DNA from: a virus
Length of the DNA: 62,843 nt
Reading direction: 5' to 3' (one strand)
Virus record (IMG/VR): IMGVR_UViG_3300021963_000042
Coordinates: 64,001-126,843 of that record
Shown here: piece after piece, positions 21,989-62,401 of the stretch
Numbering within the stretch: the first letter of the stretch is position 1
How the letters are laid out: every line of letters starts with the position of its first letter
Position numbers and translations under genes: made by a program
Notes under the pieces: generated by a model
The model's input: the letters and a program-made list of their open reading frames with translations, nothing else
Told to the model about the DNA's origin: nothing
Databases searched by the model: none

Positions 21989-22426
21989 ATGGCAGAAGAA
22001 GAAGTAAAAGTAGAACCGAAAAAAGACGAAGACTGGATGCAGAAGAAGTGGCGTCCAGCTATGGGCTGGATGTACATGGTTGTTTGTTTCTGTGACATGG
22101 TTCTATTCCCAGTAGCTTGGAGTATTCTACAAGCTGTACTGAAGCAACCAGTAACACAATGGAATCCATTAACTTTACAGGGTGCTGGATTATTCCACCT
22201 TGCAATGGGTGCTGTTCTGGGTATCGCTGCATGGGGTCGCACTCAAGAGAAAGTTGCTGGCGCTGCAAGTAACGCTCCAGTACCAGGAACACCACCTGCT
22301 CCAATGGCACCTACCACGACAGCAATAAATACAACACCAGCACCAGTTCCTCCACGTCCATTACCAACAAGAATGGACAACGATACTGCTGGTGACCCAC
22401 CAACACGAAACACTCGAAACGATTAA
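21989..22426 (+). CDS. Holin-like protein
   Basis: 145 aa from ATG 21989, chosen because GGAG lies nine bases upstream; an in-frame upstream ATG adds a basic peptide. After an acidic/basic leader the sequence KKWRPAMGWMYMVVCFCDMV begins the first of about three membrane segments, the usual pattern of the 3TM holin family. Residues after about 95 form a Pro/Thr/Ala-rich cytoplasmic tail. It would open the inner membrane for the endolysins encoded at 31.4-34.3 kb. Placement inside the head-tail operon points to late expression. Confidence 0.72.
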   Translation: MAEEEVKVEPKKDEDWMQKKWRPAMGWMYMVVCFCDMVLFPVAWSILQAVLKQPVTQWNPLTLQGAGLFHLAMGAVLGIAAWGRTQEKVAGAASNAPVPGTPPAPMAPTTTAINTTPAPVPPRPLPTRMDNDTAGDPPTRNTRND

Positions 22427-22427
22427 G

Positions 22428-22847
22428 ATGAAAATTGATGATAGATTATCAGAAGTCTTTGATGTTCCTACTATAACTAAGACCGAAGGTGAAGTGATAG
22501 ATGCGTCTACTGGCGAGATTATTCAAAAACCAGTAGAAAAAATCGAAGATGATTATGACAGAACACGAAATAACTTACACGAGTTACTTGTGAAAGGGCA
22601 GGAAGCTCTGAATCATGCACTAGAAGTTGCAAAACAATCAGAGCATCCTCGTGCGTTTGAGGTAGTTGGAAATTTGATGAAGCAGTTAGCTGACGTGAAT
22701 CAGCAATTGATGGACATTCATCAACAGAAAGCCAAACTTGATGGTCCAGGAAAAGCGGACAAGCAAGTTACAAATAATAACGCTATCTTTGTTGGTAGCA
22801 CAGCTGAGTTGAATAAACTTATTAAAAATATGACTAAAGGAGATTGA
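22428..22847 (+). CDS. 16: Terminase small subunit gp16
   Basis: 139 aa from the ATG at 22428, directly after the holin stop. The sequence is helical, with YDRTRNNLHELLVKGQEALN and HPRAFEVVGNLMKQLADVNQ, as in T4-like gp16, the ring-forming subunit that regulates the packaging ATPase. The C-terminus FVGSTAELNKLIKNM is also typical. The large subunit gp17 is not in the window, which is unusual because 16 and 17 are adjacent in T4. Confidence 0.82.
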   Translation: MKIDDRLSEVFDVPTITKTEGEVIDASTGEIIQKPVEKIEDDYDRTRNNLHELLVKGQEALNHALEVAKQSEHPRAFEVVGNLMKQLADVNQQLMDIHQQKAKLDGPGKADKQVTNNNAIFVGSTAELNKLIKNMTKGD

Positions 22848-22848
22848 T

Positions 22849-23568
22849 GTGGCTTTACCTGTGAATACATCACCAGTATATTCGATGGTTATTCCATCTA
22901 CTGGACAAGAAGTGAAATTTAGACCATTCCTAGTGAAAGACGAGAAAGCTCTGTTGATTGCTCAACAAAGCGAAGACCCAGAAGTAATGGCAGAGACATT
23001 AAAAAATGTTATCAGTTCTTGCATCACGACGCAAATTGATGTTGACAAATTAGCAACATTCGATTTGGAATACATCTTTACGCAAATGCGTGCAAAGTCT
23101 GTAGGTGAAAATGTGGATCTGATGTTCCCATGCGATATCTGCCCAACGGACGATGAGAAAGCTCGTGTTAAAATTAGTTTTGATCTAACTAAAATCAAAG
23201 TCGAGAAAGACGCAGATCATACGAATAAAATTCATCTATTCAATGACGTTGGTGTGGTGATGAAGTACCCAACTATCCAATCAATGAATAGATTTAAAGA
23301 ACTTAACGCTGACAATCTAGACGACTTATTCAAACTTATCGCAGAGTGTGTTGATTACATTTATGATGGCGATGAGATTCACTATGCAAAAGAACAAGCA
23401 TTCAATGACGTTCTTGAGTTTATGAACAACCTGACTTCTGATCAATTCAAGAGTGTTCAAAAATTCTTTGAGACTATGCCGAAATTAAAACAAAATGTGC
23501 AGTACACTTGCCCAGTTTGTCAACATCAACACAATAAAACTCTGGAGGGACTCCAAAGTTTTTTTTAG
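22849..23568 (+). CDS. 26: Baseplate hub/tail assembly chaperone, gp26-like (zero frame)
   Basis: 239 aa starting at a GTG (22849), one base after the gp16 stop. It begins ALPVNTSPVYSMVIPSTGQE and has FRPFLVKDEKALLIAQQSED and a C-terminal CxxC pair (CPVCQHQHNKTLEGLQSFF), typical of the T4 baseplate hub assembly family (gp26/gp51). Two more cysteines, CDIC, lie mid-protein, so it may bind zinc. The reading frame ends on a run of eight T directly before TAG, set up for a -1 frameshift into the following gp51-like sequence. Confidence 0.82.
   Translation: MALPVNTSPVYSMVIPSTGQEVKFRPFLVKDEKALLIAQQSEDPEVMAETLKNVISSCITTQIDVDKLATFDLEYIFTQMRAKSVGENVDLMFPCDICPTDDEKARVKISFDLTKIKVEKDADHTNKIHLFNDVGVVMKYPTIQSMNRFKELNADNLDDLFKLIAECVDYIYDGDEIHYAKEQAFNDVLEFMNNLTSDQFKSVQKFFETMPKLKQNVQYTCPVCQHQHNKTLEGLQSFF
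23559..23566 (+). promoter_or_regulatory. Predicted -1 ribosomal frameshift site (T8)
   Basis: The zero frame reads AGT TTT TTT TAG. Tandem slippage of two Phe-tRNAs back one base on T TTT TTT gives TTA GTA AAC in the -1 frame, avoiding the TAG and continuing 65 codons. The heptamer fits X XXY YYZ. No strong downstream stem was seen by eye. This resembles the conserved frameshift in tail assembly genes of lambda-like and Mu-like phages. Confidence 0.7.
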
Positions 23569-23762
23569 TAAACCTTTGTCACGATAGCTTGTTCAATCAT
23601 TATAAAACAAACTTTGCAATGATGCAATATCACAAATACTCTCTCGCAGAACTAGACAATATGATACCATTTGAGAGAGAAGTTTATATTGCCATGTTAG
23701 TGAAGTATCTTGAAGAGGAAAGACAAAGGTTAGAATCATCAAAATCAAGAGGTAGAATGTAA
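23565..23762 (+). CDS. gp51-like C-terminal extension made by -1 frameshift
   Basis: From the slippery site the -1 frame runs 65 residues to TAA, starting LVNLCHDSLFNHYKTNFAMM and containing YHKYSLAELDNMIPFEREVY, then a charged coiled end. This is the kind of sequence found at the C-terminus of T4-like hub assembly proteins. The open frame extends upstream of any good ATG; the earliest in-frame ATGs at 23620/23623 lack a clear ribosome site and would drop conserved residues. The fused product would be 304 aa. The next gene starts one base after its stop. Confidence 0.7.
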   Translation, partial: LVNLCHDSLFNHYKTNFAMMQYHKYSLAELDNMIPFEREVYIAMLVKYLEEERQRLESSKSRGRM

Positions 23763-23763
23763 G

Positions 23764-25854
23764 ATGGCACGACAAGACTATATCGTTCACGTTAGCTCTA
23801 GCGAAATGAAGAAGCTGCTGGAAGTGCAGCAACAGGCGCTGGGTTCTCTAGAATCTATGAGAACGACTCTAGAGAAAGCACAAGAACACGCTGTTGTTAA
23901 TGCTGAACGAATAGAACAGTTTGATAATAGATCTACCAAATTACAAGAAGAGTCTAACGATTTAACTAAGGATCTGTTAAAAACTTCTGAGAAAAGTTTA
24001 GAACAGCGAGGAAGAGAACTAGAAGCTATTACGCAGATGAGTGAATCTGTAAAGACCTTCGACAGCTTCGCCGATAAATTCGATAATTTCACAGACAAAC
24101 TTAAAACGAATTTAGACCCGTCTAACCTTAAAGAGACGATGCTAAAGAAATTTAACTTTGGTGGCGTATTCGACAAGAAGATTGAAGAAGGTAAGTTCAT
24201 CAAGCAGCAAAAAGCATTGGGTAGTGAAAAATCAGATAAAGAACTAAAAGCTGATTTTGAAGAAAGAAATACAGCTGCCAAAGCTATCAAGAAGAATGAA
24301 GCTAAGATTAGCAGCCTTAAAGAATCAACTGGGCTGTCAGAAGAACAACTGAAGAATGCTCCACCAGAATCTGCTGCTGGAAAACTATTTGCTGAAAGAG
24401 CGCAGTTGGCTCAGAAGGTTGAGAAGACTGATATTAGAAGTTCATATGTAACTAACAATACAGAAAAGTCTAATACTGAGAAAGTCAAAGAATCTGAAGT
24501 AATAACAAAGACAACAACACCAGCTGAACCTGTTAAGATTGCTGAAGTTATTAAACCTATTCCAGTTACATTCGCCACACCAGATACTGCTGACCAAAAC
24601 AAACAGCTAAACGTATCTGAAGATGAGATGGAAGCTGCTCGCATGCAGGAAGACCATCTTGATGTTCTTAAGGCGATTGAAAAGAACACACGAACTGGTG
24701 TAACTCCAGGCGCACCAGCCCCAGCTACTTCTAGTAGTGGTGGTGGTTTAATGGGTGGTATTGGATCTGGTCTCAAATCACTTGGTGGTGGTTTGGCTGG
24801 ACTAGGTAAAGGTATCGGTAAAGGTGTTGAAGGATTATTGAAGGGTATCGCTGAAGGTATTAAATCTTTCGGTAACAGTGATGTACTTAAAGGTGCAGCA
24901 ACGATGACAATCCTTGCAACTGCTTTATGGATTACTGGAAAGGCAGTACAAGAGTTCGTTGAAGTTGAGTGGGAAGATATGGCAAAGGCTGGCGTAGCAT
25001 TACTTGGTCTTGCTGGTGTAGCAAAGTTAATGTCTGCAGGTTCAACTGAAATGATAAAGGGAGCAGCTGCTATTGCTGTTCTTGGTGGTGCTCTTTGGGT
25101 TGCTGGTAAAGGATTTGAAGTTTTCGGTGAGATGGATTGGTCAGCTATCGGTAAAGGTTTTGTGGCATTACTAGGACTTGGTGCGGTAGCTGCTGTTCTT
25201 GGTTTAGCTTTACCATTCATTATCCCTGGAGCTATCGCAATCGCTGCATTGGGTGCTGCTCTGATTCCATTTGGTATAGCGTTTAATCTGGCAGGTCCAG
25301 CTATGGAGTCATTCGCTAAAGCCATGACATCATTGTCCGAGCTAGATGGATCTAATTTATTGAAAGTCGGTCCAGCCCTATTAGCTATTGCTGCTGGTAT
25401 GACTGCAATGGGTGCTGCTCAGGCAGCAGCTGGTGTAGGAAACCTTGTTGGTAAATTCTTGTCTTTCGTTTCTGGTCAGAAAACACCAGTTGAACAGATT
25501 ATCGAATTAGGTAAGAATGGTAATAATATTGCTGCAGCTGGAAGTGGTGTTGAGGGTATCGGTAAAGGTTTGATGCAGTTGTCTCAAGTAGACGCTGATA
25601 AAATCAAAGCTATTGCTGCATTACCAACTGAAAAGATCGCAGCGATGGGAGCAGCAATGAGAAGCGCTGGTCCAGTGTACGATCAATCTGGAAAGAATGC
25701 TGGCGCTGCAATCCCAGTACAAGGTGGTGCGCAAGTCATCGCTCCAGTTCAAAACAACGTGTCTGTAAATCAGAATCAAAATCAGATTATCAAATCACCT
25801 GTTCGAAACCAAGACGGAACTGTCGGCGACTATCTAAAAAGTCGTTACGCATAA
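23764..25854 (+). CDS. 29: Tail tape measure protein (gp29-like)
   Basis: 696 aa. Residues 1-230 are strongly helical and coiled (SSEMKKLLEVQQQALGSLES). The centre is a Gly-rich linker (GGGLMGGIGSGLKSLGGGLA) followed by several hydrophobic helices that could insert in the host membrane (AAVLGLALPFIIPGAIAIA). The C-terminus is Asn/Gln-rich. The order chaperone-with-frameshift then tape measure is the standard tail arrangement. At about 0.15 nm per residue it predicts a tail near 105 nm, similar to T4; that length is an inference. Confidence 0.85.
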   Translation: MARQDYIVHVSSSEMKKLLEVQQQALGSLESMRTTLEKAQEHAVVNAERIEQFDNRSTKLQEESNDLTKDLLKTSEKSLEQRGRELEAITQMSESVKTFDSFADKFDNFTDKLKTNLDPSNLKETMLKKFNFGGVFDKKIEEGKFIKQQKALGSEKSDKELKADFEERNTAAKAIKKNEAKISSLKESTGLSEEQLKNAPPESAAGKLFAERAQLAQKVEKTDIRSSYVTNNTEKSNTEKVKESEVITKTTTPAEPVKIAEVIKPIPVTFATPDTADQNKQLNVSEDEMEAARMQEDHLDVLKAIEKNTRTGVTPGAPAPATSSSGGGLMGGIGSGLKSLGGGLAGLGKGIGKGVEGLLKGIAEGIKSFGNSDVLKGAATMTILATALWITGKAVQEFVEVEWEDMAKAGVALLGLAGVAKLMSAGSTEMIKGAAAIAVLGGALWVAGKGFEVFGEMDWSAIGKGFVALLGLGAVAAVLGLALPFIIPGAIAIAALGAALIPFGIAFNLAGPAMESFAKAMTSLSELDGSNLLKVGPALLAIAAGMTAMGAAQAAAGVGNLVGKFLSFVSGQKTPVEQIIELGKNGNNIAAAGSGVEGIGKGLMQLSQVDADKIKAIAALPTEKIAAMGAAMRSAGPVYDQSGKNAGAAIPVQGGAQVIAPVQNNVSVNQNQNQIIKSPVRNQDGTVGDYLKSRYA

Positions 25855-32599: not shown

Positions 32600-32977
32600 G
32601 TCAGTACAAGAGCCACAGGGCATCGGTTGCTAACATCGAGCAAAGACTTCACTAATTCGTGGTAGGTTATTCTGTTACGAGGAAACCTACCGAAACCCTA
32701 AGCAGCGTTTAGGCTGCTAATGCGTAGACAGAGTCGTTTGCATTTACTTTGTTTGCTTCTTCGACCGAGTTACCCCAATCCTAAAGGCTTTCGCATTGCC
32801 TAGTTGTCCACTTCTGTACTTGTTGCCCTGTCGAAACCTAGTCACCCCCATCAGAAACATACTATTCTTGATTTAATCAAGTGCCTTCGTTAGGGTCTGC
32901 AATAGTATGCTTTTGGTGGAGGTGGGGAGAATCGAACTCCCGTCCAGAACACTTTTCTAGTTGCTTCATACAACCAT
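32600..32977 (-). ncRNA. ssrA: Circularly permuted two-piece tmRNA
   Basis: Transcribed leftward in permuted order. The acceptor piece comes first and ends at 32914 with ACCA. It carries a T arm (GGGAG-TTCGATT-CTCCC) and acceptor strand CACCTCC. A 64-nt intervening segment (32850-32913) follows, with a CATACTATT/AATAGTATG stem. The coding piece begins at 32849 with GGGGGTG, which pairs over 7 bp (one G-U) with CACCTCC, followed by ACTAGGTTTCGACAGGG, the tmRNA 5' signature. A tag frame and stems AGCAGC/GCTGCT and GGTAGGTT/AACCTACC follow. The 3' end of the coding piece is approximate. tmRNA with SmpB frees stalled ribosomes; smpB was not seen here. Confidence 0.9.
32709..32741 (-). other. tmRNA proteolysis tag reading frame ANDSVYALAA
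   Basis: Ten codons from GCA (32741) to TAA (32709), giving ANDSVYALAA, which matches the proteobacterial tag form AND...YALAA (E. coli ANDENYALAA). The ALAA end is recognised by ClpXP/ClpAP. The stop lies in the loop of the AGCAGC/GCTGCT hairpin, as in normal tmRNA. Confidence 0.9.
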
Positions 32978-32983
32978 AAACTT

Positions 32984-33012
32984 ATTATACGCTAACAGTA
33001 TTTATATGTCAA
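32984..33012 (-). promoter_or_regulatory. Consensus sigma70 promoter of the tmRNA
   Basis: TTGACA (33012-33007), exactly 17 bp, TATAAT (32989-32984): a perfect consensus on the minus strand. Transcription should begin near 32977, just upstream of the acceptor piece. The -35 box overlaps the stop of the nuclease gene. Confidence 0.92.
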
Positions 33013-61131: not shown

Positions 61132-61207
61132 TGGTGCCCCAAGAGAGACTCGAACTCCCGACCTTCGCATTACTAATGCGCTGCTCTACCAACTGAGCTA
61201 TTAGGGC
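61132..61207 (-). tRNA. tRNA-Thr, anticodon AGU
   Basis: Acceptor GCCCTAA/TTGGGGC, D arm GCTCAGTTGGTAGAGC, anticodon loop TTAGTAA (AGU), T arm GGGAGTTCGAGTCTCTC, CCA encoded. The loop matches common Thr(GGU) loops except A for G at position 34, an uncommon form in bacteria. Confidence 0.85.
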
Positions 61208-61209
61208 AT

Positions 61210-61719
61210 TTAATATTCACTTATTTTAACGTCTTTCAATGCTGCTACAGTTTCATCGTAAGATGCTTCTTTAACACAAAGACTTAAAATTATTCTTTCC
61301 TGATTAGACATGTTCATAACACAATGCTCATGTTTAACATTAAGAATAGTGGGTTTGTATAGTATATATTTCACTTCATCAAGTGTATAGTACAAAGATT
61401 TGTTTTCAACATCATCATAAAGTTTGGATCTATAAAAAGCACGTCCACCTGTATCATTGATTGGAAAATTTATAGAGCACTGTCTGACGTTTTTGTCAAT
61501 GTGCCAGTCATACAATGAGTTTGGTGGATTCTTAATCCATAACGCACTTACGTCGCCGATTAAATTCTTCAGCGACCTAATAAAATTAGAATTGTTAAAC
61601 ATAGTTCCCGCACGATAATCGTTTGGTGATACGTTTAATTTATAGGTAGCATTCATCCCTTCTTTGATGTATCGTGAAGATAGATCAGGAAAATGCTCTA
61701 AGCAATAATAATTTTTCAT
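61210..61719 (-). CDS. Oxygenase-like protein inside the tRNA array
   Basis: 169 aa from ATG 61719 (MKNYYCLEHFPDLSSRYIKE); a longer frame would read tRNA-Ala. NSLYDWHIDKNVRQCSINFP has H-x-D and an Arg/Asn pattern like cupin-type oxygenases; TILNVKHEHCVMNMSNQERI supplies a second His and Arg. The protein probably has the 2OG-Fe(II) fold; the iron site is only partly clear. It is AT-rich. Confidence 0.55.
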   Translation of the reverse strand: MKNYYCLEHFPDLSSRYIKEGMNATYKLNVSPNDYRAGTMFNNSNFIRSLKNLIGDVSALWIKNPPNSLYDWHIDKNVRQCSINFPINDTGGRAFYRSKLYDDVENKSLYYTLDEVKYILYKPTILNVKHEHCVMNMSNQERIILSLCVKEASYDETVAALKDVKISEY

Positions 61720-61727
61720 TTTATCCT

Positions 61728-61802
61728 TGGTGGACCGTAAGAGAATCGAACTCTTACCTCTGACGTGCAAAGCCAGCGTGCTCCCATTATCACTAACAGC
61801 CC
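61728..61802 (-). tRNA. tRNA-Ala(UGC)
   Basis: Acceptor GGGCTGT/ACGGTCC, anticodon loop TTTGCAC (UGC), T arm AAGAGTTCGATTCTCTT, CCA encoded. Normal cloverleaf by eye. Confidence 0.88.
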
Positions 61803-61807
61803 AAGTA

Positions 61808-61882
61808 TGGCTCCACAGGCAGGGATCGAACCTACGACCAATTGATTAACAGTCAACTGCACTACCGCTGTGCTACTGTGGA
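61808..61882 (-). tRNA. tRNA-Asn(GUU)
   Basis: Acceptor TCCACAG/CTGTGGA, anticodon loop TGTTAAT (GUU), T arm GTAGGTTCGATCCCTGC, discriminator G, CCA encoded. Confidence 0.9.
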
Positions 61883-61906
61883 ATATAACTATCTATTCTA
61901 AAATTT

Positions 61907-61980
61907 TGGTGCCCCATGACAGAATCGAACTGCCATCCTCGGATTACAAAACCGATGTTCTACCATTTAACTAATGGGGC
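61907..61980 (-). tRNA. tRNA-Thr(UGU)
   Basis: Acceptor GCCCCAT/ATGGGGC, anticodon loop TTTGTAA (UGU), T arm GGCAGTTCGATTCTGTC, CCA encoded. The second Thr tRNA of the array. Confidence 0.9.
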
Positions 61981-61984
61981 GAAT

Positions 61985-62061
<77 letters not shown>

Positions 62062-62068
62062 ATAAAAC

Positions 62069-62143
62069 TGGTGGTGATGGTTGGATTCGAGCCAACGACC
62101 TGCTCCGTATGAAGGAGATGCACTACCGCTGTGCTACATCACC
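62069..62143 (-). tRNA. tRNA with CAU anticodon (Met or lysidine-type Ile)
   Basis: Acceptor GGTGATG/CATCACC, anticodon loop TTCATAC (CAU), T stem GTTGG/CCAAC with loop CTCGAAT, CCA encoded. Lacks the initiator mismatch at 1-72, so it is elongator Met or Ile(CAU); cannot be settled by eye. Confidence 0.85.
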
Positions 62144-62207
62144 ATAAAGGGTTATACTGGCAGGTGCGGTATCTGGTCTCGACTTTAGGATGTCTCAACT
62201 TGCCCAT
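62139..62207 (-). CDS. 22-residue microprotein between tRNAs
   Basis: MGKLRHPKVETRYRTCQYNP then LW, ATG 62207 with AAAGGAG five bases upstream. Its TGA lies in the first bases of tRNA-Met. Basic; no domain. The tRNA spacer is otherwise empty. Confidence 0.4.
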   Translation of the reverse strand: MGKLRHPKVETRYRTCQYNPLW

Positions 62208-62242
62208 GCTCCTTTTTCTTTCCTTACCAATACAACTTTTTA

Positions 62243-62317
62243 TGGTACCTTGTGACGGGATCGAACCGCCGACCTTCTCCTTGTAAGGGAGACACTCTAC
62301 CGCTGAGTTAACAAGGC
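62243..62317 (-). tRNA. tRNA-Val(UAC)
   Basis: Acceptor GCCTTGT/ACAAGGT, anticodon loop CTTACAA (UAC), T arm GCGGTTCGATCCCGT, CCA encoded. Confidence 0.9.
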
Positions 62318-62324
62318 AAATAAC

Positions 62325-62401
62325 TGGTGCCCACGCAGAGACTCGAACTCTGAAAATTTGGCTTCTAAGACCAACACGTATACCAATTCCGTCACATGGG
62401 C
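62325..62401 (-). tRNA. tRNA-Leu(UAG) with a short variable loop
   Basis: Acceptor GCCCATG/CGTGGGC, Leu-like D arm ACGG-AATTGGTATA-CGT, anticodon stem TTGGT/GCCAA with loop CTTAGAA (UAG), then only ATTTT before the T arm CAGAGTTCGAGTCTCTG. Bacterial Leu tRNAs normally have a long variable arm; here it is five nucleotides. Confidence 0.82.

Follow-up and report, generated by a model that had tools for sequence, protein, structure and literature searches.

The slippery sequence of phage lambda is G_GGA_AAG. For T4-like phages, Vladimirov, Gautam and Davidson are said to have identified the tail assembly chaperones (TACs) in 2022 (Virology 566:9-15), with genes 26 and 51 as the genes concerned. 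G-T frameshifting has been described as widely conserved except in T4 (PMC5009743), and some T4-like phages are described as carrying one gene for a short TAC and another for a fused long TAC, in place of a frameshift (PMC10885494, citing Vladimirov et al. 2022). The initial annotation of the DNA studied here proposed a programmed -1 frameshift that it regarded as unfamiliar for T4-like hub assembly proteins. The mechanism seems less unfamiliar than that, since PMC12846349, a 2025 paper, refers to poly-T slip sites in the TAC-N genes of T4-like phages, again citing Vladimirov et al. 2022.

The locus lies within the window, a stretch of 62,843 nucleotides (positions 64,001 to 126,843 of the IMG/VR virus record IMGVR_UViG_3300021963_000042). 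Judging from its sequence, the gene in question is very probably the TAC gene of a marine T4-like phage and of the frameshifted kind, a kind familiar from many tailed phages and a principle that is already in print.

Organization of the gp26-like locus

The gp26-like gene, which would encode the short form (TAC-N) of 239 amino acids, occupies positions 22849..23568 on the + strand and has a GTG start. In the zero frame, it ends with CTG GAG GGA CTC CAA AGT TTT TTT TAG. This end contains a putative slippery heptamer, T_TTT_TTT, at 23559..23565 (+ strand), which would allow the tRNAs on two Phe codons to slip back together by one base, and the zero-frame TAG stop follows immediately 3' at 23566..23568 (+ strand). 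The heptamer is located inside a run of eight T's (23559-23566), the sole run of at least eight T's within the window. The site had been annotated as T8 followed by TAG; the eight T's are indeed present, but the last of them already opens the stop codon, and the site is strictly T7 plus TAG.

The -1 frame is open from TTA at 23565 through 65 codons and ends with TAA at 23760-23762. This extension (23565..23762, + strand) is the candidate gp51-like C-terminal domain of a long form (TAC-NC), and the +1 frame at the junction is shut after six codons. A tape-measure-like gene (23764..25854, + strand, 696 aa) lies directly 3' of the -1 frame tail, with one base between the TAA and its ATG at 23764. 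Its product matched phrog_4372 (tail length tape measure protein) with an E value of 2.2e-12 over residues 354-526 only and had no match in Pfam, and its identity as a tape measure protein is therefore given with moderate confidence. These coordinates bear out the order given in the initial annotation, with the chaperone gene immediately before the tape measure gene. They also agree, together with the match to phrog_634 and the pN/pS values described below, with its account of a protein-like -1 frame of 65 codons that ends one base before that gene.

Other genes were found around this locus. A small-terminase-like gene at 22392-22847 (phrog_445, E 9e-38; PF11053, E 8.7e-12) is located directly upstream of the gp26-like gene. 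Elsewhere in the window, a permuted (two-piece) tmRNA gene was identified at 32618-33006 on the - strand, with the tag ANDSVYALAA according to ARAGORN and Rfam scores of 122.8 bits for tmRNA_permuted and 100.5 bits for beta_tmRNA; this gene may hint at a betaproteobacterial host. Additionally, eight tRNA genes (Thr, Ala, Asn, Thr, Pro, Met, Val, and Leu) are clustered at 61132-62401 on the - strand.

Conservation of the heptamer and of the -1 frame

The word TTTTTTY is itself common in the record, with 19 forward and 13 reverse occurrences (controls, 14 and 14), and therefore only a conserved place of the heptamer counts. Relatives were collected as 80 IMG/VR loci first and then as 191 sequences comprising more IMG/VR loci and named phages, the IMG/VR loci being the best 80 of 258 and the best 80 of 276 relatives. 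Two of the 191 sequences scanned gave no gp26 frame, namely L081 (T4, which had no match by that search) and L189 (cut off), and the 189 gp26 frames obtained represented 121 distinct 75-base junctions. The comparison of relatives suggested in the initial annotation did reveal a conserved T run: T_TTT_TT[C/T/G] was present in the gp26 frame of 115 of the 121 distinct junctions, in phages of three families, as TTTTTTC (77 junctions), TTTTTTT (37), or TTTTTTG (1). Within these 115 junctions, the zero-frame stop follows the heptamer directly in 40, one codon later in 74, and eight codons later in 1. The named carriers are S-PM2, S-ShM2, S-WAM1, S-RSM4, S-CRM01, HTVC008M, Mosig, and Melnitz-1 of the Kyanoviridae, KVP40 and Aeromonas phage AsFcp_2 of the Straboviridae, and RHph_N34 of the Pootjesviridae.

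These junctions bear on two explanations that need no ribosomal slip. Homopolymers are prone to error, and the frame break might come from sequencing or assembly, or else mark a decayed gp26-gp51 fusion; however, the identical break occurs in the loci L001 and L002 and in named genomes such as S-PM2, KVP40, HTVC008M, and S-CRM01, and the tail shows purifying selection, which leaves this explanation with a negligible probability. Transcriptional slippage can also arise at homopolymer runs, and RNA polymerase could slip on the eight T's of the window to yield some mRNAs with an extra U that encode the fusion directly. Nevertheless, the 77 junctions with TTTTTTC have six consecutive T's, a short run for slippage by a polymerase, and what is conserved is the in-frame X XXY YYZ pattern rather than the length of the run. 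The retention of this pattern, with six T's in most distinct junctions, fits tandem tRNA-Phe slippage over polymerase slippage, and we consider the latter highly improbable.

The codon usage at the junction points in the same direction as the conserved position. Phe-Phe or Phe-Leu occurs within the last 12 residues of 183 of the 189 gp26 frames, and the heptamer is present in all of these (183/183). The codon test drew its representatives solely from heptamer loci, of which 177 of 183 had sufficient length. In the 38 representatives at 70% identity, the residue preceding Phe-Phe is S, N, D, or G with T as the wobble base, the first Phe codon is TTT, and both AGT and TCT are in use for Ser. Given each gene's own codon use, the chance of this pattern corresponds to a log10 P of -18.0 for these 38 representatives and of -10.8 for 23 representatives at 60%, values that treat the representatives as independent and ignore their shared ancestry, by which they are not fully independent. 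The test is not circular, because no Phe-Phe or Phe-Leu end without the heptamer was found among the 189 frames.

The six distinct junctions without the heptamer comprise five Ackermannviridae-like ones (three so classified and two without a family) and L182, in which an early stop lies within gp26 and the junction is not reached. In the five Ackermannviridae-like junctions and in three further relatives, the tail frame is kept without the heptamer, so that some other route to the tail must exist in these phages. A common ATTTTCATTTAAT is found at the gp26 end in Kuttervirus, Limestonevirus, and a Klebsiella relative (L207:1900-1990, L208, L209, and L094:3200-3300), which lack a canonical heptamer but still have the gp51-like -1 frame. 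In SS9 (L207), CBA120 (L094), and the Klebsiella phage (L209), the earliest ATG, GTG, or TTG codon of that frame is codon 11. In the Vibrio Ackermannviridae-like loci L090, L092, and L097, the gp26 stop forms part of TAATG, which would suit translation of the tail by restart.

Selection on the -1 frame was estimated as pN/pS from 97 distinct tails, using 68 close pairs (2-15% different) and 431 more distant pairs, which are not independent of each other. In the close pairs, the pN/pS of the -1 frame was 0.16 for the first 11 codons (codons 0-10) and 0.11 for codons 1-18, and the other two frames gave 1.38 and 1.69 over codons 1-18. The more distant pairs gave 0.32 and 0.27 in the -1 frame versus 1.23 and 1.45 in the other frames. 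No start codon is present in -1 codons 0-7 of 91 of the 177 loci, and pN/pS over these codons was still 0.13 in the close pairs and 0.29 in the more distant pairs; a zero-frame control over codons 1-7 of the loci without an early start gave 1.99 and 1.97. By this measure, purifying selection acts on the -1 frame right from the slip point, also in relatives without a nearby start codon.

The tail might alternatively be a separate gene, the translation of which begins at a start codon of its own or resumes after termination of gp26. In line with this, the 11 named heptamer records have a separate gp51-like gene annotated in 9 cases, none in 2, and a joined one in 0, and TAATG is found at the stop in KVP40, S-CRM01, and L044. 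The first five codons of the -1 frame include ATG in 61 of the 177 loci and any of ATG, GTG, or TTG in 85, which would make restart possible in many relatives, but its place is not conserved. The first ATG of the -1 frame is at codon 3 in 48 loci, codon 14 in 40, codon 19 in 40, codon 18 in 22, and other codons in 27, while the open -1 stretch 5' of the slip site has a start codon in only 5 of the 177 loci. Conserved residues of the window's tail precede its earliest in-frame start codons, which are TTG at codon 8 and ATG at codon 18. Moreover, a separate gene needs no T_TTT_TTY heptamer, yet nearly all distinct junctions have one. With selection acting on codons 0-7 even where they are start-less and with ATG positions scattered in this manner, a separate gene is not an easy explanation, and we regard it as very unlikely.

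Families, predicted structures and the two-gene phages

The two parts of the putative fusion were assigned to the families of gp26 and gp51. The gp26-like product matched PF12322 (T4_baseplate) with an E value of 2.1e-64 (217.6 bits versus a cut-off of 24.5) and phrog_150 with an E value of 4.6e-70. The -1 frame tail matched positions 59-120 of 121 of phrog_634 (gp51 family, E 2.1e-25) and also the C-terminal end of phrog_150 (positions 237-279, E 9.1e-6), the front end of which is the gp26 part. Searched alone against Pfam, the tail gave nothing above the cut-off. The family phrog_150 thus seems to contain already proteins in which both parts are joined, with T4 gp51 as an example.

An AlphaFold model was obtained for the gp26-like product (pLDDT 86, with 32 relatives used), as was a model for the 65-residue tail, which was predicted to form three helices (pLDDT 74, with 15 relatives used). 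Residues 1-85 of the gp26 model were compared with the HK97 TAC (2OB9_A; Z 7.5, rmsd 3.7, 84/107 residues aligned), and the same N-domain comparison gave matches to two other small proteins, 3fgx (Z 7.8) and 5ir0 (Z 5.5), with the next row at Z 3.2, although a Z under 8 may mean merely a common arrangement. Foldseek gave 0 matches of the gp26 model at E <=0.001 against the PDB, with the HK97 chaperone at ranks 3 and 4 and E about 1. Against viral models, it gave 61 matches at E <=0.001, and the named ones among the 50 listed were mostly baseplate hub proteins. In a sequence search for solved relatives of gp26, the best E value was 0.15 and the names were unrelated. These models may point to a moderate fold resemblance between the gp26 N-domain and the tail assembly chaperone of HK97.

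The two-gene set used for comparison comprised T4 and eight further Straboviridae in which gp51 is a separate gene. T4 gp26 consists of PF12322 alone, and T4 gp51 consists of PF12322 (residues 1-201, E 3.9e-52) followed by the same tail as that of the -1 frame in the window, covering positions 13-280 of 282 of phrog_150. The junction of the window into the tail, SFF-LVNLCHDSLFNHYKTNFAMMQYHKYSLAELDNMIPFEREVY, was set against the tail of T4 gp51. In the nine phages with a separate long gp51, the heptamer is absent from gp26 (0/9) and the tail is carried by gp51 (9/9). The gene after gp26 is gp25-like in these nine phages and is annotated as a baseplate wedge subunit in 8 of them and as a hub subunit in QL01.

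Separate genes with their own starts in related phages had been named in the initial annotation as evidence that would speak against a frameshift. Such genes do occur in the T4-type phages, but the second gene there is a complete gp26-like domain plus the tail, and gp26 is without a slippery run; this arrangement therefore supports a frameshift product instead of refuting it. That the tail is the end of a gp26-like protein in all nine also argues against a tail with a start of its own.

Searches of whole records for PF12322 gave one match in the record of the window (126,843 bases, which may be a fragment) and one in each of the 11 named heptamer phages (11/11). Two matches were found in all seven two-gene phages tested, T4 and six relatives (7/7; L201 and L203 of the nine were left out), and one in each of two Ackermannviridae tested. 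Among the phages sampled, the slip site and a fused second gene occur as alternatives, with neither present in the Ackermannviridae. The T4 arrangement of two separate genes, which is a subgroup trait and not required of the T4-like gp26/gp51 TAC family, is absent in the record of the window.

Proposed mechanism and comparison with known systems

A programmed -1 frameshift joining the gp26-like and gp51-like parts, as proposed initially, is by far the best reading of the conserved heptamer, the selection on the -1 frame, and the fusion in T4. We consider it highly probable, from comparative sequence evidence, that programmed -1 ribosomal frameshifting on the one gene of this locus yields a short and a long form of a tail assembly chaperone. 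The occurrence and rate of the shift, any stimulator, and what each form does are inferred as follows. Most ribosomes would read AGT TTT TTT TAG and release the short gp26-like form of 239 aa. A minority would move one base back with both tRNA-Phe on T_TTT_TTT, read TTA GTA AAC next, and add the 65 residues of the gp51-like helical domain, yielding a long form of 304 aa. The position of the gene beside a tape-measure-like gene makes the lambda gpG/gpGT scheme the natural reading; by analogy with that scheme, many copies of the short form would coat the tape measure protein, and the extra domain on the few long copies would bring in tail tube subunits.

Signals that might stimulate the shift were found upstream of the slip site. 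A Shine-Dalgarno (SD)-like GGAGGG at 23544..23549 (+ strand), 9 bases 5' of the slip site, is a weakly indicated, possible stimulator. SD-like words occur upstream of the slip site in 27 of the 38 representatives, where synonymous resampling predicts 17.3 (sd 2.7). For Glu at codon -7, GAG is used in 18 of 27 cases, though the genes favor GAA (433 to 162). The SD-like word may act as an internal stimulator of the kind that promotes frameshifting in dnaX, the excess being modest. Downstream of the slip site, a consensus fold of the 38 sequences contained 0 conserved pairs, and the stretch 3' of the slip site in the window folds about like its shuffles (z -0.83).

The distribution of the slip site could be explained by a single-gene frameshift that is ancestral across T4-related phages (Kyanoviridae, some Straboviridae, and Pootjesviridae). 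According to this scenario, to which we give an even chance, the gene was duplicated in T4 and its close relatives, with one copy fixed as the fusion gp51 and the slip site decayed in the other, and the Ackermannviridae reach the same tail by a different, non-canonical or restart signal.

The closest likeness is to the T4-like TACs, in which, as described in PMC10885494, the short form consists of PF12322 and the long form of PF12322 plus the tail. T4 itself differs in having two genes on opposite strands and a gp26 without a slip site, whereas in the window a single gene carries the slip site. Lambda gpG/gpGT is similar in its -1 shift near the 3' end of the chaperone gene, its short and long forms, and its role as a tape measure chaperone (PMC5009743), but the slippery sequence of the window is T_TTT_TTT, and the two are likened by arrangement. 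In the TACs of the Vandenendeviridae and Andersonviridae (phage Adele), a -1 frameshift at a conserved GTTTTT at the TAC-N end was likewise predicted by comparison, and the tail is routinely annotated as a separate hypothetical gene; these are other phage families, with a shorter conserved motif than that of the window (PMC12846349). In a similar manner, gp26 and gp51 are often annotated apart, and the tail analyzed here is present in 570 phage records at E <=0.01.

Additionally, the short gp51 of cyanophages and vibriophages described by Sullivan et al. 2010 is the same tail, cyanophage gp51 having about 20% of the length of the others and a similar C-terminus; it was treated there as a shortened gene, and the available main text does not use the word frameshift (PMC3037559). 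A frameshifted end of gp26, rather than a shortened gene, would account for the standing oddity that gp51 of cyanophages and vibriophages resembles a 20% remnant of T4 gp51.
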